Source: Chitinophagaceae bacterium (GTDB lineage Bacteria; Bacteroidota; Bacteroidia; Chitinophagales; Chitinophagaceae). From it: DNA of 64,000 nt. The notes beneath the pieces were generated by a model. It had not been told where the DNA came from. It saw only the letters and a list, made by a program, of their open reading frames with translations, and made no database searches. The position numbers and the translations under genes are program-made. Positions within the stretch are counted from its first letter, which is position 1. Every line of letters starts with the position of its first letter. The stretch is from positions 1 to 64,000 of the forward strand of contig CANGOX010000001.1 of NCBI GenBank assembly GCA_947455605.1, read 5' to 3'. Shown here piece by piece: positions 6,431 to 61,962 of the stretch.

Positions 6431-6586
6431 AAGTTTGGGGTTTGGGGTTTTGAGTTTGGAGTTATTTTCTAAAAAAAATCCGGTTCCTCATAAAAAAATA
6501 ATGAGTACATATAGTACTCATTATCAATTAATTACAAAATATTTAATTCATGCAACTCCAAACGCTAAACCCCAAACTCCAAACTT
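6431..6586. repeat. Heptamer-armed inverted repeat A with a central hairpin
   Basis: The left arm is 6431-6463 and the right arm 6554-6586. The arms match at 30 of 33 positions as inverted copies and are built of near-tandem heptamers of the type GTTTGGR. The 90-nt spacer holds a perfect 11-bp hairpin (6498-6508 with 6514-6524). The right arm reaches the stop codon of prs. It lies between prs and rplY on the same strand, so it could modulate rplY read-through. Confidence 0.85.
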
Positions 6587-14881: not shown

Positions 14882-14987
14882 GCTTAACGCTGAAGGCAGA
14901 AGGCTGAACGCTTTCGTGAATGGTCAATGGTGAATGGTGAATATTAATTTGACCTCCCTTATTGACAATTCACCATTCACCATTGAC
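14882..14987. repeat. Heptamer-armed inverted repeat C
   Basis: Starting two bases after the folD stop, 14882-14942 reads as about nine consecutive 7-nt units in one phase (GCTTAAC, GCTGAAG, GCAGAAG, ... TGAATGG). Bases 14923-14942 pair perfectly (20/20) with 14968-14987. It separates folD from queE, which lie on the same strand. Confidence 0.88.
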
Positions 14988-30410: not shown

Positions 30411-31364
30411 TTACATCCTCAACTCCTTTAAAGCGGCTTCATAATCATCCCAGATCTCTTTCACAACATCCGCCGCGGGTATTATTTCGTGGATCATGGC
30501 GCTCACCTGTCCTATTTCGAGTTCACCTTCGGTAAGGTCTCCTTCAAACATTCCTTTTTTGGCACGGGCGCGGCCGAGGATCTGTTTGAGTTCTTCTTCA
30601 TCGGCTCCCGCTAATTCTGCAGAACGTACAATATCAAAAAAAGGGTTTTTTAATAAGCGCACCGGCATCAGTTTTTTCATGCTCAATAAAGTGTCGCCTT
30701 CTTCTGCCTTGATCACGGCTTCTTTAAAAGCCACATGAGATGAAGCTTCCGGCGTGCAAACAAAACGGCTGCCTATCTGCACCCCATCTGCACCCAAAAC
30801 CATCGCAGCAAGCATCTGTCTACCGGTAGCAATACCTCCGGCTGCTATCAAAGGAATTTTTATCGCATCCTTTACAACCGGCACCAGAACCATAGTTGTG
30901 GTTTCTTCTCTTCCGTTATGTCCGCCGGCTTCGAAGCCTTCTGCTACTACTGCATCGCATCCTGCATCTTCTGCTTTCTTTGCAAATCTGCTGCTGCTAA
31001 CTACATGCACTACCGTAATTCCCTGTTCTTTTAAATACCCGGTCCATGCTTTTGGATTACCCGCACTGGTAAAAACGATGGGCACTTTTTCTTCCACAAT
31101 GATCTTCATGATCTCTTCGATATTCGGATACATTAAAGGCACATTCACTCCAAAGGGCTGATCCGTTGCTGCTTTGCATTGCCGGATATGTTCACGCAAA
31201 ACATCCGGATACATACTACCCGCACCAATCAACCCCAATCCACCTGCATTGCTCACCGCACTGGCCAATTTCCAACCGCTGGCCCATACCATGCCGGCTT
31301 GTATAATGGGGTATTTAATCTTGAATAAGGATGTTATCCGGTTAGTCCATAGTCCATGGTCCAT
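30411..31364 (-). CDS. Nitronate monooxygenase family protein with a repeat-derived N-terminus
   Basis: This 317-residue FMN TIM-barrel protein of the nitronate monooxygenase/2-nitropropane dioxygenase family has KYPIIQAGM (about 18-26), GLGLIGAGSMYP, the active-site segment GFEAGGHNGRE (about 142-152), AAGGIATGRQ and GVQIGSRF. It oxidises nitronates or acts in a related flavin-dependent step. The first seven residues (MDHGLWT) are encoded by the heptamer arm at 31345-31373. Homologues usually begin close to NRIT, so the arm appears to supply the start codon. The S23-type gene ends 9 nt upstream on the same strand. Confidence 0.9.
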   Translation of the reverse strand: MDHGLWTNRITSLFKIKYPIIQAGMVWASGWKLASAVSNAGGLGLIGAGSMYPDVLREHIRQCKAATDQPFGVNVPLMYPNIEEIMKIIVEEKVPIVFTSAGNPKAWTGYLKEQGITVVHVVSSSRFAKKAEDAGCDAVVAEGFEAGGHNGREETTTMVLVPVVKDAIKIPLIAAGGIATGRQMLAAMVLGADGVQIGSRFVCTPEASSHVAFKEAVIKAEEGDTLLSMKKLMPVRLLKNPFFDIVRSAELAGADEEELKQILGRARAKKGMFEGDLTEGELEIGQVSAMIHEIIPAADVVKEIWDDYEAALKELRM

Positions 31365-31373
31365 AGTCCATAG
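31345..31373. repeat. Heptamer arm G1 (GTCCATA units) at the nitronate monooxygenase start
   Basis: Units GTCCATA, GTCCATG, GTCCATA, GTCCATA run from 31345 to 31372. The arm covers the nitronate monooxygenase start codon and touches the stop codon of the S23-type gene at 31374. Confidence 0.9.
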
Positions 31374-31727
31374 TTATTTAAGTGATTCGTTGAGTTTAGA
31401 GATCATTTTACAAAGATGTTCATACTCCTCATAATATTTAGTAAAGATATCTATTGAAATGTAGGTTTTCTTTTTTGCAATAAATAAACAAGAGACAACC
31501 TCTACTGCTGAACGCAAAGAATAACGGAGAAACCTGGCAAACTCAAGATTTGTCTGCCCCGTACATCCTTCTGCAATATTTAATACAACCGAATCGGCAG
31601 CTCTTCTGATTTGATTTGATAAGCTATATAATTCGAAAGCAGGAAATGAAGAAGCTACTTCACTGATCTCCACACTAAGGTCGAGTGCCTTATGCCAAAC
31701 ATTTAGTTTTTCAAATTTGAAGGACAT
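31374..31727 (-). CDS. Four-helix-bundle protein (S23/23S rRNA intervening-sequence protein family)
   Basis: From the ATG at 31727 this is a 117-residue all-helical protein starting MSFKFEKLNVWHKALDL. It has the family signature LSNQIRRAADSVVLNIAEG (about 45-63) and a second conserved helix FARFLRYSLRSAVEVVSCL. The fold is shared with the Avd accessory protein of diversity-generating retroelements. Members occur as ORFs inside stem-loop intervening sequences of 23S rRNA, but most have no known role. A longer frame from 31760 runs into repeat sequence and is not preferred. It is enclosed by GTCCATA arms on both sides, and its stop abuts arm G1. No reverse transcriptase is nearby. Confidence 0.88.
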   Translation of the reverse strand: MSFKFEKLNVWHKALDLSVEISEVASSFPAFELYSLSNQIRRAADSVVLNIAEGCTGQTNLEFARFLRYSLRSAVEVVSCLFIAKKKTYISIDIFTKYYEEYEHLCKMISKLNESLK

Positions 31728-31748
31728 GGGTAAATGTAGAGAAGAGTG

Positions 31749-31854
31749 ACCATAGTCCATAGACCATTGTCCATAGCAGGAACAAAAAAGGTATAAATAC
31801 TTAGTGTATATGCCTGAGTTAAATACTATGGACTATCGACCATGGACAATGGAC
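31749..31854. repeat. Heptamer-armed inverted repeat G2/G3 upstream of the S23-type gene
   Basis: Arm 31749-31777 is in the same orientation as arm G1 and has the same GTCCATA unit theme. Arm 31826-31854 is the inverted form (TATGGAC units), 23 of 29 positions pairing. With G1 these bracket the S23-type gene in a segment of about 510 nt. Confidence 0.85.
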
Positions 31855-31860
31855 AAAACT

Positions 31861-32853
31861 CTACCCAAAATCGATCTCCGTATTATCTCCAATATTCAGA
31901 CTGCGGCTCAACCCTTTTACCGAAGCATCACTGCCGATCAGGGAATTGTCGAGTACCACTTCGTAGAGGCTGGTGTAGGAACCGATGATACTGTCGCGGA
32001 TGATGGAATGTTTGATGGTGGTATTGGCGCCAATGGCCACATGCGGCCCAATGATGGCGTTTGAGATATCGCAACCCGCGGCAATGCTTACCGGTGGGAT
32101 GATGATGGTGTCTTTGAATTCGTGGTTGCTGCTCACATTGCCACCGAATTTTTTCAGCAGGGTAGCATTGCTTTCCAGCAGGGTCTCTTTCTTTCCGCAG
32201 TCAAACCAGTTCTTTACTTTAAAAGCCTGGAACCTGGCTCCGCGTTTGATCATGCAATCCAGGGCATCGGTCAGATTATATTCACCAAAGGTTTTAATAT
32301 CCTGGGCAAAAATATGTTGAAGACATTCGTATAGAAACTGTGTTTCTTTGATCTTATATAAACCCACCAATGCCATATTGCTTTTGGGGATCGCAGGCTT
32401 CTCAACCACCTGATCTATAAACCCATCTTCACCCACAGATGCAACCCCAAAATTTCTGGGATCGTCTACTTTCTTAATGCCTAACATGCTGTAAGGACTG
32501 TTCACCACTTCCTTTACATCATATTCGCAAATGGTATCGCCTAATGCTACGAACACTTCATCATCGCCTACAATATTGCGGGTGAGTTCGATGGCATGTC
32601 CGGTACCCTGGCGCTCATTCTGAAATACAAAATGGGTGGTAAGATCGGGATAGGTTTGTTTTACATAGTCCTGGATCTTCTCACCCAGATAACCTACAAT
32701 AAAAATAAATTCGTTGATTCCGGCTTCGTGTAACTGATCCACTATAAAACTGAGGATGGTTTTACCGGCTATCGGTATCAATGCCTTGGGTTGGGTATAG
32801 GTATGGGGCCTTAATTTGGTACCTGCTCCGGCCACGGGAATGATCGCTTTCAT
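31861..32853 (-). CDS. Sugar-phosphate nucleotidyltransferase
   Basis: The 330-residue protein starts at the ATG at 32853. The N-terminal Rossmann-like domain (about 1-240) shows MKAIIPVAGAGTKLRPHT, the Lys in QPKALIPIAGK, and GDTICEY with the catalytic Asp. The C-terminal part (about 250-330) is a left-handed beta-helix of hexapeptide repeats. The overall type is glucose-1-phosphate thymidylyl- or mannose-1-phosphate guanylyl-transferase, supplying NDP-sugars for the envelope. The exact sugar and nucleotide cannot be told. The usual GxGTRL signature reads GAGTKL. The upstream frame from 32937 adds 28 non-conserved residues. Confidence 0.88.
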   Translation of the reverse strand: MKAIIPVAGAGTKLRPHTYTQPKALIPIAGKTILSFIVDQLHEAGINEFIFIVGYLGEKIQDYVKQTYPDLTTHFVFQNERQGTGHAIELTRNIVGDDEVFVALGDTICEYDVKEVVNSPYSMLGIKKVDDPRNFGVASVGEDGFIDQVVEKPAIPKSNMALVGLYKIKETQFLYECLQHIFAQDIKTFGEYNLTDALDCMIKRGARFQAFKVKNWFDCGKKETLLESNATLLKKFGGNVSSNHEFKDTIIIPPVSIAAGCDISNAIIGPHVAIGANTTIKHSIIRDSIIGSYTSLYEVVLDNSLIGSDASVKGLSRSLNIGDNTEIDFG

Positions 32854-32984
32854 GGGGGTCTTTGATTTTGGAAATAGTGCCGGTTCCTTATTCACATTGT
32901 CTTTGCGTCTGTCAGACACATTTCCGCGAGGGCACAAAATAGGAAAATCTGCTTAGAGGGCAAGGTTTGGGGAAAAGAAAGAAG

Positions 32985-33229
32985 AATCAAGGGGCAAGAT
33001 CCAAGACTCAAGAATCAAGGGTTAAGGATTTAGGGAACAAGATTCAGGAATCGTGGAATAGGAAATAAGACAAGGGGCATAAGAATTGAGAATCCGGGGG
33101 TTAGCGTGTGATTGTTTTTAAGTATTATAAATAATTTTATATGAACTGCCCCCCTGTATCCTTGCCTCTTGATCCTTGATTCTTGACACTTGACCCCTGT
33201 TTCTTGAACCTTGATTCTTGAACCTTGCC
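32985..33229. repeat. Heptamer-armed inverted repeat H, longest in the window
   Basis: The left arm 32985-33096 reads as sixteen consecutive 7-nt units in one phase (AATCAAG, GGGCAAG, ATCCAAG, ACTCAAG, ...). The right arm 33160-33229 is ten units of CCTTGAT/TCTTGAA type, inverse to the first part of the left arm. About 60 nt of AT-rich DNA separate them. This copy lies between divergent genes, so it is not a shared 3' terminator. Confidence 0.92.
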
Positions 33230-39089: not shown

Positions 39090-39116
39090 TATATTACGCT
39101 TATAAAAAAATCAAGA

Positions 39117-39178
39117 ATTGCGCCTTTGCGCCTTTGCGCCTTTGCGAGAAATTTTCACGCAGAGGCGCAAAGGCGCAG
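39117..39178. repeat. Inverted repeat L (GCGCCTTT units), probable shared terminator
   Basis: Three tandem GCGCCTTT octamers at 39120-39143 pair with 39157-39176 (CGCAGAGGCGCAAAGGCGCA). The hairpin is flanked by a T-run at 39179-39184 and A-rich sequence on the other side, between the converging sigma factor and DsbD genes. It fits a bidirectional terminator. Confidence 0.85.
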
Positions 39179-39182
39179 TTTT

Positions 39183-41132
39183 TTATTTACCGGAAGAGAA
39201 GGCTTCTTTACCGCACTTCAACCATTCCAGATACTCTTTTACATCCGGCGTGTAACCAACCGGATTATTCATCAGCTTTTCACTGTTGTTGAGGATCACA
39301 TATAAGGGTTGGGTAGACTGTCCAAAATTTTCTGTCTGAAAAGTGGCCCATTTATCGCCGATGCTGATGATGTCTTTGGTATTATTATCTTTTAGTGTAT
39401 AGGTAAAGCGTTGATCGGCCGGTAATTTTTCTTTATCATCTACATATAAGGAAACAAGAATGAAATTTTCTTTTATGTAATTATAAACAGAAGGATCGGT
39501 CCATACATTCTCTTCCATCTTACGGCAGTTTACACAGGCCCAACCGGTAAAGTCGATCAATAAAGGTTTATGCTGGTCTTTGGACAACTGCAAAGCTCTT
39601 GCATAATCGTTGATCACATTGGCTTCCAATCCTTTGCCATGCACATTGTCTTTTCCATAAATACTGTAACTGAACGGTGGCGGAAAACCGCTGAGTAATT
39701 GCAGGTTGGCATATTTGGTTTGTGTAACTCCAGGTATCAGATAAAGTGTGAACAGCAAGGCAATGCCTCCCAATACTTTTCTTCCTGTGCCGATCTTCAT
39801 TCCTTTATAATCATGCGGCAGACGTATGATACCAAACAGATAGAGGGTTAAGCCGCTGCCAATAAGGATCCAGATGCCAATAAACACTTCGCGTTTTACC
39901 AGACCCCAGTGCATCACCAGGTCTGCGTTGGATAAGAATTTTAAAGCCAGAGCAAGTTCTAAAAATGCCAGTACTTTTTTCACAGTATCTAACCATCCGC
40001 CTGATTTTGGCAACGAGTGTAACCAGTTTGGAAATATGGCAAACAAAGCAAAAGGCAAGGCCAGTGCTAAACCAAAGCCTGCTAATCCTGAGGTTAACTG
40101 CCAGGCACCACCACTGATCGATCCTACCAATAAGGAACCCAGAATGGGTCCTGTGCAGGAGAAAGAAACAATTGCAAGCGTAACCGCCATAAAGAAGATG
40201 CCCACCACACTTCCCAATCCACTTTTCGAATCTGCTTTGCTCGCTATATTACTTGGGAGTGTGATCTCAAAATAGCCAAAGAAGGAAAAAGCAAAGAAGA
40301 TGAAGATGATAAAGAATACCAGGTTCAGCCATGAATTGGTGGAGATATTATTAAAGATCTCAGGCTGTACATTGCCCAGAATATGAAAGGGCACACTGGC
40401 CAGTAAATAAATTAAGAAGATAAAGAAGCCATACAATGCCCCGTTCTTTATAGCCTGTTTCCGGTTGCTTGCTTTTTTGGTAAAGAAGGAAACGGTAACC
40501 GGTATCATAGGAAACACGCATGGGGTAAGCAATGCGATCAATCCGCCTAAGAATCCTAAAAAGAAAATAGATAACCAGCCACTGCTTACAATATCATTTT
40601 TCTTACCACAATCTTTTGTTGGATTAACAAGATCGATACTGGTTAATTTGATTTTTTTACTATCTGCCGAAACAGCGGCACCACCTTCGAGGCTTACTTC
40701 AAATACCTGGTCCTGGGGTGCAAACTCTTCTGCTTTTCCGAGGTTGGCGGTAAGGTTACCTTTCAAAGTACCGGGAATAAAACCATCAATTTTTACCTGC
40801 TGTTTTATTTCTATCTCACCGGTAAAAACGTTTACTTTCTTTTTTTCAAACAAGCCGTCCGTAATGATCTCTGCAGCTTTGTTATACAATATGCTTGCCT
40901 GGGGTATTGCTTTTTCGTAGTTGGGGCTGAACTTTGGTGATTCCAGGCCTTCCACCAACGGATTGGTTCCGTACAAATGCCAGCCTGCAGGAATGGTTGT
41001 TTTGGCCGTTAGTTCATACAAACCAGTACCGATCTTCTTAGACTGTACCTGCCATTTTAATAAACTGTCTGTTTGTGCAGACACCAACAGGCATGAGAGT
41101 ACCGCTAAAAAAGAGAAGAGTATTTTTTTCAT
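39183..41132 (-). CDS. DsbD-family thiol:disulfide interchange protein
   Basis: The 649-residue inner-membrane protein carries electrons from cytoplasmic thioredoxin to the periplasm. It has a signal peptide (ending VSAQ) and an N-terminal DsbD-alpha-like domain (about 25-150). The CcdA-like membrane domain (about 188-440, about eight helices) has conserved LTPCVFPMIPV and FSCTGPILG, each with one Cys. A C-terminal thioredoxin-like domain (about 510-640) contains the CVNC active site. Eleven nt upstream lies a stand-alone DsbD-alpha-like gene, so the two likely work together. Confidence 0.92.
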   Translation of the reverse strand: MKKILFSFLAVLSCLLVSAQTDSLLKWQVQSKKIGTGLYELTAKTTIPAGWHLYGTNPLVEGLESPKFSPNYEKAIPQASILYNKAAEIITDGLFEKKKVNVFTGEIEIKQQVKIDGFIPGTLKGNLTANLGKAEEFAPQDQVFEVSLEGGAAVSADSKKIKLTSIDLVNPTKDCGKKNDIVSSGWLSIFFLGFLGGLIALLTPCVFPMIPVTVSFFTKKASNRKQAIKNGALYGFFIFLIYLLASVPFHILGNVQPEIFNNISTNSWLNLVFFIIFIFFAFSFFGYFEITLPSNIASKADSKSGLGSVVGIFFMAVTLAIVSFSCTGPILGSLLVGSISGGAWQLTSGLAGFGLALALPFALFAIFPNWLHSLPKSGGWLDTVKKVLAFLELALALKFLSNADLVMHWGLVKREVFIGIWILIGSGLTLYLFGIIRLPHDYKGMKIGTGRKVLGGIALLFTLYLIPGVTQTKYANLQLLSGFPPPFSYSIYGKDNVHGKGLEANVINDYARALQLSKDQHKPLLIDFTGWACVNCRKMEENVWTDPSVYNYIKENFILVSLYVDDKEKLPADQRFTYTLKDNNTKDIISIGDKWATFQTENFGQSTQPLYVILNNSEKLMNNPVGYTPDVKEYLEWLKCGKEAFSSGK

Positions 41133-48831: not shown

Positions 48832-51558
48832 TTATCGAACATTGATCAAAGTAAAAATTCTGTTCTGCAACTTTATGGTTCCTGCATCAATTTTCATTCT
48901 GATATCGATGGCTTCACCAGAAGCAACCGTGGCGATGCCTTGAAGTGATACCTCACCTAAATTCAAAGTGCTGACTCTTGATCTTTCTGAGAAAGGTAGT
49001 AAAACACCGTTTTGATAAATACCAAAGACCGCTGTTGTACTGCTTGCCACATTACTTGGCGGATAAATGTTTCCGTTCACAGTAGATGTTTCAAAGCCTG
49101 AAATGGTTCCGGAATTAGTTCCTATGTCACCGTTTATATTTGACACACCAAGGTTCGTTACATTTCCCATAGAAGTAAATATTGCAAAGGTTGAAATTGT
49201 GTTTAAAATAGAGGAGCAACCTGTTGGTATTATCATGACAGATGCTCCCAAAGAAATTGCTCCTACATTAGACAATAATCTTCCTTCGAGGTTGGTATTA
49301 TCAATGGTAACGGCTCCATTATTAGACAGCAGGGTTCCTTTTATTATTGAAGCAGCACCTGTAGATATTGCACCTTCAGCTACCCAATAAACATTACATA
49401 CAGAAGCTCTATTTATTAATGTAATATTAGTACTAACCGCTGTACTAAATGCACCTCCAAATCTGAAAACAAATTCAGCATTGGGATTACCTTCTCCATC
49501 CAATATCAGATTGCCTCCGGCAGTACATGCACCTGCGTTGGAATAAACCCCTGCAGTAAGTGTTTCACCTCCACCAAAAGCCGGCACATGTGAAGCGTTA
49601 GTGACAGTTTTAGCCATCAATTGATTATACGCTGTTCTCAAATCTATTTTAGCCTGTCCGGTTCGATCAGAAGCTGAAAGTGTATACTGACTATTAAATG
49701 ATACTGCATATTTTCCTGCCGGAGGTGATAAAGTCATGCCGGTAGCCACTACCGCTGTGGCAGACGTAGTAGTTATTTCTGTACCTGCAGAAATTGATTG
49801 TGATGCACTTGGGTTTGCTAATACAAATTCAGTAGTAGCCAATTGTGTTGTATTGTTTCCAATCGCTGCCGTTGGTGCCAATGGGATATCTGTGAATCGG
49901 GGCGATGCAGAAAACACAGCACTACCAGTGCCTGATCCATCTGTTAATGATTGCAATAATTGTGCGGAGCTGATACTTGCAGCAGCTGTGCCATATAAGG
50001 TTCCGACTGCCGGTAACGTTACTGATGTTGCTGCAGTTGTAATTAATGTTGCTGAGAAAGGGCCTGGCAAATTAATTGATGCAGCATTATTATTGGCAAC
50101 TCCCGTTCCTCCGTTCATTGGCAAAATGATTCCTGAAACATTCAAAGCCGATCCGGTGGTATTTTGATTTAAGACAGGAAAATCGCTTGCAACGGCAATA
50201 GAAGGTATACCTGTTAGTGTAGTGTTTTTTAAGACACCGGATATTAATGACGATAAGGATATGCCATTAATTTTATCTACTACCGTTGCATTTTGATTTC
50301 CGGTTACATCTCCAGAAAAAGTTCCGGTAAATGATCCGGCTGCACCGGTAAGTCCTGTTAATCCTATCGCTCCATTCAATCCATCAACACCATTTATCCC
50401 ATTCGTCCCTGTCAGTCCATTCGTTCCCGCTAAACCTGTTAGTCCTATCACTCCATTCAATCCATCAACACCATTGATCCCATTCGTTCCTGTCAGTCCA
50501 TTCGTTCCCGCTAAACCTGTTAGTCCTATCACTCCATTCAATCCATCAACACCATTGATCCCATTCGTTCCTGTCAGTCCATTCGTTCCCGCTAAACCTG
50601 TTAATCCTATCGCTCCATTCAATCCATCAACACCATTGTTTCCATTGATCCCATTCGTTCCTGTCAGTCCATTCGTTCCCGCTAAACCTGTTAACCCTAT
50701 CGCTCCATTCAATCCATCAACACCATTGTTTCCATTGATCCCATTCGTTCCTGTCAGTCCATTCGTTCCCGCTAAACCTGTTAATCCAATCGCTCCACTG
50801 GGTCCATCGATTCCTTTTGCTCCATTATTGCCAATCCCGCCAGACAAACCAATATCGCCTTGTAAACCTTTCAATCCCTGCTCACCTAAATTACCTTTGG
50901 ATGCATCAAGTCTTATTTCCCAATAGGAAGAAGAACTGCTACCATTAATTTCATTAATAGACAGCTCCAATGAACCTGTTTCTTTATTATAAGCAATCAT
51001 TCTTCCATGAAAATGATTACCGGTACTATTCGAAACAATCAGATAACCCAGGGTTGCAAAAGATAAATCTTTGGTCATGCTGATAGAAATATTACTCCCT
51101 AGTACTAAAGTTGACAAGTTGATCATGTCATTAGAACTGCCCAAAAAATCGTTTACCACTCCGTTTAACGCAAATAATGCATAAGGCACACTCAACATTT
51201 CGCTGGTGCCTACTATTGTGTAATCCGTTCCGCCATTGGGATCGGTTTCAATTTTAATAAAGTATGGGCCGTTTGACCAATCTATTTGTATGAAACTACC
51301 TGCTACTGCGATACCTGCCCCTATTTGCATACTCACCAAACCATTGGCATTCGTGGTTCTGTTTTGCTTTTCAACATAAACCGCCACACCCGTTGAAAAA
51401 CCCTGCAGAATACTAACCTGCATACTAACCGGTTTTAAACCAACTAAAGAATTATCACTATTTCGGATAACTGCCTGATAACTCATTTTTTGGGGCACTT
51501 GTGCAAACGCAGGATGTGATAGAAATACAACAAATCCGATGCAGAATAATATTTTCAT
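48832..51558 (-). CDS. Secreted collagen-like protein with DUF3494 (ice-binding-like) domain
   Basis: The 908-residue protein has a signal peptide (about 1-19) and a Bacteroidota adhesin-type N-terminal domain (about 20-135, QKMSYQAVIRNSDNSL... SVPYALFAL). A collagen-like Gly-x-y tract (about 226-405) is followed by a spacer and a DUF3494 domain (about 586-783) with TAYNQLMAK, GGETLTAGVY and NVYWVAEGAIS. A further stretch (about 790-845) resembles the N-terminal half of DUF3494, so the domain order looks permuted. DUF3494 proteins include ice-binding and adhesion proteins. Ice binding here is unproven. No T9SS sorting domain is seen at the C-terminus. The upstream T9SS type A gene ends 2 nt before it. 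Confidence 0.85.
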   Translation of the reverse strand: MKILFCIGFVVFLSHPAFAQVPQKMSYQAVIRNSDNSLVGLKPVSMQVSILQGFSTGVAVYVEKQNRTTNANGLVSMQIGAGIAVAGSFIQIDWSNGPYFIKIETDPNGGTDYTIVGTSEMLSVPYALFALNGVVNDFLGSSNDMINLSTLVLGSNISISMTKDLSFATLGYLIVSNSTGNHFHGRMIAYNKETGSLELSINEINGSSSSSYWEIRLDASKGNLGEQGLKGLQGDIGLSGGIGNNGAKGIDGPSGAIGLTGLAGTNGLTGTNGINGNNGVDGLNGAIGLTGLAGTNGLTGTNGINGNNGVDGLNGAIGLTGLAGTNGLTGTNGINGVDGLNGVIGLTGLAGTNGLTGTNGINGVDGLNGVIGLTGLAGTNGLTGTNGINGVDGLNGAIGLTGLTGAAGSFTGTFSGDVTGNQNATVVDKINGISLSSLISGVLKNTTLTGIPSIAVASDFPVLNQNTTGSALNVSGIILPMNGGTGVANNNAASINLPGPFSATLITTAATSVTLPAVGTLYGTAAASISSAQLLQSLTDGSGTGSAVFSASPRFTDIPLAPTAAIGNNTTQLATTEFVLANPSASQSISAGTEITTTSATAVVATGMTLSPPAGKYAVSFNSQYTLSASDRTGQAKIDLRTAYNQLMAKTVTNASHVPAFGGGETLTAGVYSNAGACTAGGNLILDGEGNPNAEFVFRFGGAFSTAVSTNITLINRASVCNVYWVAEGAISTGAASIIKGTLLSNNGAVTIDNTNLEGRLLSNVGAISLGASVMIIPTGCSSILNTISTFAIFTSMGNVTNLGVSNINGDIGTNSGTISGFETSTVNGNIYPPSNVASSTTAVFGIYQNGVLLPFSERSRVSTLNLGEVSLQGIATVASGEAIDIRMKIDAGTIKLQNRIFTLINVR
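50351..50800 (-). repeat. Minisatellite encoding the collagen-like tract
   Basis: Five to six tandem units of 81 or 90 nt encode a 27- or 30-residue block of Gly-x-y triplets; the 90-nt units carry an extra GNN triplet. Units are nearly identical in DNA, so copy number can change by recombination or slippage in frame. Confidence 0.93.
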
Positions 51559-61491: not shown

Positions 61492-61497
61492 ATATAG

Positions 61498-61585
61498 GCT
61501 GAATGCAGAACGCTAAACGCCAAACGCTTTTACTAAGCATCAGGCGTTTTGCGTTTTGCATTTTGCGTTTAGCGTTCTGCGTTTA
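61498..61585. repeat. Heptamer-armed inverted repeat Q (GCTAAAC/GCGTTTT units)
   Basis: The left arm 61498-61532 reads GCTGAAT, GCAGAAC, GCTAAAC, GCCAAAC, GCTTTTA. The right arm 61544-61585 has six units (GCGTTTT, GCGTTTT, GCATTTT, GCGTTTA, GCGTTCT, GCGTTTA). It lies between the converging metG and DUF779 genes. The unit family resembles those at 6431, 14882 and 37536. Confidence 0.9.
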
Positions 61586-61587
61586 GC

Positions 61588-61962
61588 TTATTCATTCATT
61601 TTTTCTAAAAGAGCATTCTCCTCTTCAGTAAATAATCGCGACTGTATAAAAAATCTGACTCCCAAAGGGATTTCCAAAGAGAAACTGCTTCCTCTACCTG
61701 GTGTTACATCCAATATCAGTTGCGTATGTTTCCAATAGGTAAACTGATCAGCTGACATATAAAATTTACAGCCGGATACTTCACCAAGGCAAACATCATT
61801 GCCACCGATCTTAAATTCACCTTCTGTAAAACACATAGGCTGTGATCCATCGCAACAACCGCCACTCTGATGAAACATGAGTGGTCCGTTCTTTTGTTTT
61901 AACAACCCAATAAGATCAAGGGCTTTGGAGGTTGCAATAATTCTTTGTACTTCCATATTCAT
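61588..61962 (-). CDS. DUF779 family protein
   Basis: The 124-residue protein has the DUF779 signature: HQSGGCCDGSQPMCF (about 31-45), GGNDVCLGEVSGCKFYM (about 53-69) and TPGRGSSFSLE. Several Cys could bind a metal or a cofactor. The family is regularly found next to ExaC/AcoD-type aldehyde dehydrogenases, as here, but its role is not established. It is 55 nt downstream of the aldehyde dehydrogenase gene, with a strong palindrome between. Start at 61962 or 61956. Confidence 0.88.
   Translation of the reverse strand: MNMEVQRIIATSKALDLIGLLKQKNGPLMFHQSGGCCDGSQPMCFTEGEFKIGGNDVCLGEVSGCKFYMSADQFTYWKHTQLILDVTPGRGSSFSLEIPLGVRFFIQSRLFTEEENALLEKMNE

Follow-up and report, generated by a model that had tools for sequence, protein, structure and literature searches.

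A gene of the S23 (23S_rRNA_IVP) family and the short repeats enclosing it were analysed in a stretch of 64,000 nucleotides (nt) from a Chitinophagaceae bacterium (contig CANGOX010000001.1, positions 1 to 64,000; hereafter the window). The locus is probably the coding member of a two-part selfish element, which consists of S23-coding copies and gene-free hairpin copies and in which the S23 protein recognizes its cognate arm. The coding copy would be a hairpin with arms of tandem heptamers and a loop holding S23 as its single gene, and the gene-free copies would be short hairpins with arm units identical to those of the coding copy. The evidence comprises the anatomy of the loci, the specificity of the repeat units to protein clades, the match between the arms of solitary hairpins and those of coding copies, their fixed polarity, two hairpin families absent from relatives, empty sites, and a site occupied by different S23 elements in near relatives.

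An earlier note, made from the letters alone, had described an S23-type four-helix-bundle gene enclosed by GTCCATA heptamer arms, with its stop codon touching the left arm, and our results agreed on both points. The open reading frame (ORF) matched the PF05635 profile with an E value of 1.2e-32 (112.7 bits against a curated cut-off of 33.8), which was its sole Pfam match at E <= 0.001, and its AlphaFold2 model (pLDDT 95.8) consists of four helices. The parts of the element are as follows.

31374 to 31727, minus strand: S23 / 23S_rRNA_IVP four-helix-bundle gene, 117 amino acids (aa) from the ATG at 31727; an alternative in-frame ATG at 31760 would give 128 aa
31342 to 31374, no strand assigned: outer arm on the 3′ side of the S23 gene, four GTCCATA-type heptamers, sense on the plus strand
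31824 to 31857, no strand assigned: outer arm on the 5′ side of the S23 gene, inverted partner of 31342-31374
31748 to 31777, no strand assigned: third arm, a direct copy of 31342-31374
31791 to 31800, no strand assigned: palindrome GTATAAATAC, between the 5′ arm and the S23 start codon

The outer arms (31342-31374 and 31825-31857; 33 nt, 91% complementary) enclose the gene, whose stop codon (31374-31376) abuts the left one. Positions 31750-31776 are a direct copy (89%) of the left arm, and the third arm could pair with 31824-31857 as a local hairpin in the S23 leader, the right side being a small hairpin. In the predicted RNA fold of 31335-31865 (minus strand) the outer arms pair around the ORF, with an energy of −147 kcal/mol versus −117 kcal/mol (standard deviation 6.1) for shuffled sequences (z = −5.0). 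Taken by itself, the heptamer GTCCATA is no more frequent in the window than chance allows (12 occurrences versus 7.5 expected; 10 of 100 shuffles reach 12), and it is the four-unit arms that go beyond chance, as shown below.

A profile search of the genome that contains the window (G000; 4.1 Mb in 214 contigs, assembly 99.4% complete) returned 15 S23 matches. Each gene was given an arm score, defined by the best inverted repeat between the 250 nt upstream and the 250 nt downstream. Paired arms were found around all 15 genes with scores of 15 to 29, and cross-paired flanks (n = 210) gave a mean of 8.4 and a maximum of 15, which the weakest own locus, L008, equals. As controls, 363 ORFs were picked mechanically from the same genome, and of these 6 reached 13 and 4 reached 15; S23 genes thus lie nearer to paired arms than other ORFs do (15/15 versus 4/363 at a score of at least 15), as the earlier note had anticipated. 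By the strongest lag, the arm unit measures 7 nt in eight loci, 8 nt in six (L001, L006, L008, L010, L012, and L013) and 9 nt in L002, and by eye no unit is common to any two of the 15 loci. The coding copy of L014 carries an in-frame stop, and this locus was omitted from the S23 protein alignment; second copies of the window gene (L123) and of L009 (L153) were excluded.

Two of the high-scoring control ORFs deserve description. One adjoins an L014-type hairpin. The other, a non-S23 ORF of 138 aa at L184:3218-3801, is enclosed by octamer arms of L006 type and sits between ffh and the ribosomal S16 gene, as read from the translated flanks; it is perhaps a cargo gene. In addition, the palindrome GTATNNATAC was found exactly within 250 nt upstream of 8 of the 15 S23 genes (by eye L002 to L007, L009, and L014) against a background of 0.01 per 250 nt. 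It was rejected as part of the element class, because none of 165 S23 loci elsewhere in Bacteroidota has it; for the same reason it is a feature of this lineage, and may possibly act as a lineage-specific operator or promoter.

Hairpins without a gene were searched with a detector of paired short-period arms (score of at least 14), which is strand-asymmetric (five pieces of 80 kb from genus g67 gave 10 and then 8 hairpins, some of them S23 elements) and some of whose matches seem incidental, e.g., L186:7430 and a few in the genome G062. The detector found nine hairpins in the window, the S23 element included, and a further 400 kb of G000 yielded 28; shuffles gave none. Arms of the genome's own 15 S23 genes were matched by 26 of the 36 solitary hairpins, including hairpins of 8-nt and 9-nt period, a count slightly inflated since three hairpins (L192: 41, 82, 129) are probably one compound place. 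By comparison, 15 arms drawn at random from 93 other S23 loci matched a mean of 7.5 and a maximum of 16 of the 36 in 2000 draws. Of the eight solitary hairpins detected in the window, four correspond to arms of S23 genes elsewhere in the genome and four are orphans; two more were missed by the detector and assigned by eye.

6431 to 6586, no strand assigned: solitary heptamer hairpin, GTTTGGG type, unit of S23 gene L004
8304 to 8450, no strand assigned: solitary heptamer hairpin, AATTAAA type, unit of S23 gene L007
15627 to 15712, no strand assigned: solitary hairpin, GAATATTGAACAAGG type, unit of S23 gene L014
23317 to 23434, no strand assigned: solitary heptamer hairpin, GGAGTC type, unit of S23 gene L009
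29463 to 29531, no strand assigned: solitary hairpin, CGTGAGT type, unit of L005 by eye, missed by the detector
32969 to 33227, no strand assigned: solitary hairpin, CTTGATT/AATCAAG type, unit of L015 by eye, missed by the detector
14916 to 14987, no strand assigned: solitary hairpin, GTGAATG type, orphan with no matching S23 arm in the genome
35216 to 35366, no strand assigned: solitary hairpin, CAAGGAACAGATGAA type, orphan
39108 to 39188, no strand assigned: solitary octamer hairpin, CGCCTTTG type, orphan
61494 to 61591, no strand assigned: solitary hairpin, AACGCTA type, orphan

The earlier note had taken the other hairpins of the window for the GTCCATA structure without its ORF. This identification failed, since they are built from other units. 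The relation of coding to gene-free copies that it proposed was supported in general terms, through common units, period and polarity and, in one family, a similar inner boundary. Besides 39108-39188 of the window, octamer hairpins of CACGCAGAGGCGCAAAG type, to which no S23 arm of the genome corresponds, were seen at L201:15416, L202:6476, and L196:16587. Repeats of another kind, spaced 81 and 9 nt, lie at 50273-50850 within a 908-aa ORF (48832-51558).

Two families were then counted through the whole genome. A 27-nt GTCCATA pattern with up to three mismatches gave 71 matches at 46 places of G000, of which two places are the window element and 44 lie outside it; the reversed pattern gave none, and such arms were absent from the 26 other same-genus genomes. 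Both arms were present at 18 places, with the sense arm on the left in 18/18; at six of these the arms overlap, because GTCCATGGAC is itself palindromic, and the polarity is ambiguous, and the remaining 12/12 are clearly sense-left. Similarly, a 25-nt pattern of the L014-type arm matched 64 times at 46 places, which include the coding copy, with no match when reversed and none in the same 26 genomes. All 17 L014 places with both arms are sense-left, and the spacing from start to start is 46-52 nt in 14 of them. Among four solitary L014 copies that were read, three have a 24-nt loop and one a 148-nt loop; GAAGT stands near the start of the three short loops and also at the inner end of the left arm of the coding copy (GTTGAAGT), so that the inner boundary is similar in 3/4 copies. 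This fits solitary copies that would be internal deletions of the coding copy, as far as the few copies read can suggest.

S23 loci beyond this genome were often armed as well. A score of at least 13 was reached by 13 of 27 loci from other families of the order and two same-genus genomes (cross pairs of these loci, n = 702: 99th percentile 12, maximum 17), by 46 of 80 loci from named records of one S23 clade, nearly all Bacteroidota by record title and taken as the best 80 of 541 relatives, and, among the matches listed, by 12 of 29 relatives of the window gene and 22 of 29 relatives of L009. The unit is mostly of AGTATTG, AGATTTG or AGTACCA kind in the 80-locus clade, whose hosts come from several classes; many relatives of the window gene have GACCATA, GACCAAT, GACGGAT and similar units, and relatives of L009 have AATTAAG, AATTAGG and the like. 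Arms of the 80 loci (of 138) that scored at least 13 were compared, using only pairs with unrelated neighbours on both sides. Arm similarity was 0.38 within clades (990 pairs) versus 0.27 between clades (1828 pairs), a difference reached by none of 2000 label permutations, and the antisense values were 0.25 and 0.22, which points to a mainly strand-specific signal. Mantel tests on 74 loci gave r = 0.45 in the sense orientation (0/2000 permutations) and 0.11 in the antisense orientation (71/2000); with order relatives (28 loci) r was 0.18 (9/2000), and for the 15 own loci alone the correlation was not significant (r = 0.13, reached by 204/2000). As judged from these sequence comparisons, the repeat unit follows the S23 protein clade across the phylum, even between unrelated sites.

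Some loci depart from the usual form. The flanks of L033 and L040 hold arrays of period 8 (CATGCAAC) and period 6 (CTCACT), longer than the usual arms. S23 genes occur in clusters of four at G083:C14:220758-226839 and of three at G094:C1:1665224-1671196, spaced about 1.6-3.1 kb, and the genome G282 has 16 S23 matches, several short or with internal stops, i.e., many decayed copies.

To locate the window element among its neighbours, the adjoining genes are given here.

30411 to 31364, minus strand: downstream neighbour, nitronate monooxygenase family (NMO, PF03060), codirectional with S23
31861 to 32937, minus strand: upstream neighbour, nucleotidyltransferase (PF00483), codirectional with S23

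These two genes adjoin in same-genus genomes without the element. Among 25 other same-genus genomes, eight have the two aligned side by side on one strand, with 33-110 nt separating the aligned parts; in three further genomes the NMO gene is adjacent on the opposite strand. The empty 31345-31854 site that the earlier note had asked for therefore exists in other species of the genus, seven cases having been read in letters and the eighth by coordinates. The spacers of the seven are 35-125 nt long, too short for an S23 gene, and no paired arms were seen in them by reading; one of the empty sites, that of G003, holds two GGTCCAT units and no S23. In the window genome, again by reading, the NMO start codon falls within the outer arm 31342-31374, and the protein begins with MDHGLWTNRIT from this ATG, where the relative L259 has MPFTNRIT. 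A different site, in another genus with flanks 92.6-96.9% identical, carries an S23 gene of L009 kind in two genomes and, in three more, one of L014 kind with its own arms beside a leftover arm of L009 type; the more distant G098 (flanks 75-77% identical) has the leftover arm only. Among five near relatives, two carry a hairpin-like insert of 119 nt that the other three lack.

A rival explanation is homing, in which hairpins would arise by slippage and snap-back replication and S23 cassettes would insert into them, the hairpin being the target. The 138-aa non-S23 ORF within L006-type octamer arms and the two GGTCCAT units at the empty site of G003 would suit this explanation, which we nevertheless consider quite improbable. 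Hairpins hardly pre-exist in the relatives: within the genus, 400 kb of the S23-free G010 holds one hairpin, and 400 kb of G017, whose one S23 gene lacks paired arms (score 8), holds none. The same length of G062, of the same family and with 14 S23 genes, holds 11, a few of which seem incidental. Moreover, the unit follows the S23 clade, and the L014-family hairpins are mostly uniform in size.

S23 elements were also found in other phyla. Of 16 S23 loci examined from 25 plasmid records with S23, 11 scored at least 13, namely 9 of 14 cyanobacterial loci, one of Gemmatimonadota and one of Azospirillum; L365, L373, L374, L378, and L379 fell below. The units of the cyanobacterial arms include GGGAGTA, AGGGAAC, AGGTGAC, and TTAGCTT, one of the nine armed loci has 8-nt units, and these arms resemble the short tandemly repeated repetitive (STRR) sequences, to whose named classes they may belong. 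In 50 kb read of the Anabaena plasmid pANA02, all seven strong heptamer tracts lie at the S23 gene, and on 150 kb of cyanobacterial plasmid the detector found just three hairpins, one of them the S23 element. The Azospirillum gene (L377) lies inside a 23S rRNA gene, Rfam RF02541 spanning the whole locus, and its arms are of GACGGAT type (score 21). The window element (locus L003) has no Rfam match at the gathering score and lies between two protein genes. No match to the S23 protein L018, the sole S23 clade searched there, was found among 50,697 phage records at E <= 1e-5. On cyanobacterial plasmids S23 genes were also seen within CRISPR operons (L367, L369, and L375), in the orders cas6-S23-cas4 (two genera) and cas10-S23-cmr3.

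Kinship with diversity-generating retroelements, with S23 as an Avd-like partner of a reverse transcriptase, was weighed because the two proteins share a fold. Foldseek ranked 2gsc first (TM 0.94), then 2rld, then Avd (4dwl_D; TM 0.79-0.85, E 0.11), and the likeness to Avd that the earlier note had drawn is thereby upheld; a likeness of PF05635 to Avd is also noted in the accessible text of PMC10053308. However, no match to the reverse transcriptase family RVT_1 (PF00078) was found in G000 or G192 (G010, G017, and G062 have some), and on pANA02 the annotated avd gene of a diversity-generating retroelement lacks paired arms (score 9) where the S23 gene of the same plasmid has them. A place for S23 within such a retroelement was rejected on these grounds, and the explanation is very improbable.

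The main rival to a selfish element is a host regulator. Here each S23 would be an RNA-binding regulator with its own regulon of mRNA hairpins between genes, the arms around its gene would be autoregulatory, and there would be no mobility. The S23 gene looks to be under purifying selection (ratio of nonsynonymous to synonymous substitution 0.17-0.44 in four pairs of near relatives, with few changes; a fifth pair was saturated), both neighbouring ORFs are codirectional with S23 in 106 of the 116 Bacteroidota loci where both neighbours were found (of 122), the leader of the window gene permits alternative pairings of the three arms, and one site keeps S23 across the phylum, all of which a regulator would explain. 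It would hardly explain why two solitary families occur in one species and in none of 26 same-genus genomes, why one genome has 15 S23 genes when another of the same genus has none, why the S23 type at one site differs between near relatives, or why S23 is antisense to both neighbours at L364, L365, and L371 on cyanobacterial plasmids. We therefore regard the host regulator as unlikely and the selfish element as the better account.

Several observations nevertheless weigh against a selfish element. The site just mentioned, fadB-fadA as read from translated flanks, holds S23 in about 30 loci spread over the phylum, a pattern that resembles long vertical inheritance and might reflect a host function; these loci are not independent, because all lie at one site. 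Own arms pair better there on average than cross-paired arms (13.3 versus 9.6), and since they beat 90% of the cross pairs in just 34% of 32 loci, maintained pairing is weakly shown. Two diverged same-genus S23 genes, L026 and L027 (in G011 and G017, host genomes without another S23 match), are armless at one common site and perhaps domesticated. At the threshold used, 77 of 196 S23 loci examined had no paired arms, and cross pairs reached 13 in 186 of 1500 cases in the 80-locus clade, in 135 of 812 among the L009 relatives and in 12 of 90 among the first ten plasmid loci (21 of 812 among relatives of the window gene); these high scores arise in part because units are common to loci. The label permutation and Mantel tests ignore shared descent, and 10 of the 36 solitary hairpins match no S23 of the genome. 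As to movement itself, the coding copies of G000 are mutually diverged, with 14-55% identity to the window copy (13 others aligned) and no pair above 60%, so that no recent copying of the coding element is visible. No target-site duplication was evident at the closer sites read, and none was established at the window site, where the relatives are 66-81% identical; no strain-level jump was seen. Finally, S23 has no known catalytic activity.

According to the accessible text of PMC4990558, S23 proteins are widespread, their function is not known, and a Xanthomonas homologue forms a toroidal homopentamer. The charge of S23 is uninformative (median pI 6.9). In the 108 loci that scored at least 13, median arm length was 25.5 nt, with a 90th percentile of 34 nt, which amounts to up to about five 7-nt units. 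A speculative but attractive model is that a pentameric S23 ring would read one unit per protomer, by analogy with the ring of the TRAP protein. In the selfish-element mechanism such a ring would recognize its cognate arm, in single-stranded or hairpin form, and would be required for the spread of a mobile element. Copying of the hairpin would fall to host enzymes, since S23 is the only gene of the element and no RVT_1 match was found in the genome. Coding copies would settle at places where an additional RNA hairpin or cleavage by RNase III does little harm, namely between genes and in 23S rRNA.

If elements of this kind are mobile, their movement would rely on a single small protein for which no enzymatic activity is known; we know of no class of bacterial element of which this is true. 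The enclosing repeat unit offers a specific candidate partner for each S23 protein and hence a direct binding test. More tentatively, and with somewhat less than even confidence, S23 elements may form a phylum-spanning mobile class with neither transposase nor reverse transcriptase, in which a five-membered ring reads up to about five tandem single-stranded units, with a unit particular to each S23 clade, and host enzymes copy the hairpin, and which accounts for the 23S rRNA intervening sequences that bear S23, the short-period hairpins of Bacteroidota, and the cyanobacterial STRR sequences. The data link these three, which the accessible literature has so far treated separately, and relatives of the element may explain repeats that have puzzled biologists for decades. 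Titles and the starts of abstracts yielded no report joining S23 genes with heptamer arms, which is weak evidence of novelty since most subscription papers lay outside the search.

Among known repeats, the TAACTGA repeats of Beggiatoaceae, also present in five Bacteroidetes, are likewise intergenic tandem heptamers; unlike S23-type arms they are almost entirely direct, with 169 sets and one inverted case in the genome of PMC4679880, the accessible text of which mentions S23 zero times. Cyanobacterial STRR sequences are usually 7-bp repeats that form hairpins between genes, with function not known (PMC2670836), and a Nostoc intron has heptanucleotide repeats that fold into a hairpin (PMC3488679). 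The likeness lies in tandem 7-bp units and intergenic hairpins and in the 9/14 cyanobacterial plasmid S23 genes with paired short-period arms; the accessible part of PMC2670836, however, draws no link to S23, and the window element is not cyanobacterial. Diversity-generating retroelements share with S23 the fold of Avd, and differ in the reverse transcriptase, of which G000 has 0 PF00078 matches, and in the one avd gene examined, which had no paired arms.

In REPIN/RAYT systems one protein gene is flanked by its repeats, and many gene-free hairpins of the same sequence are dispersed. The S23 gene is similarly flanked by repeats that are also dispersed genome-wide without it. RAYT, however, is a Y1-type (HUH) transposase, whereas S23 folds as a four-helix bundle, lacks any known catalytic site and gave no Y1 transposase match, and its arms are tandem 7-9-mers. 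The intervening sequences of 23S rRNA hold an S23 ORF in a stem-loop with terminal inverted repeats (28-bp stem) and are sporadically distributed (PMC4990558). The window ORF is likewise enclosed by terminal inverted repeats, and the Azospirillum element lies inside a 23S rRNA gene with heptamer-type arms; the window element differs in sitting between protein genes, and here there are several elements per genome, clade-specific units, and dispersed gene-free copies. The S23 element has a fair chance of being a class of its own, and the window kind is nearest to S23-bearing 23S rRNA intervening sequences, of which it would be an intergenic multi-family form arranged like REPIN/RAYT.

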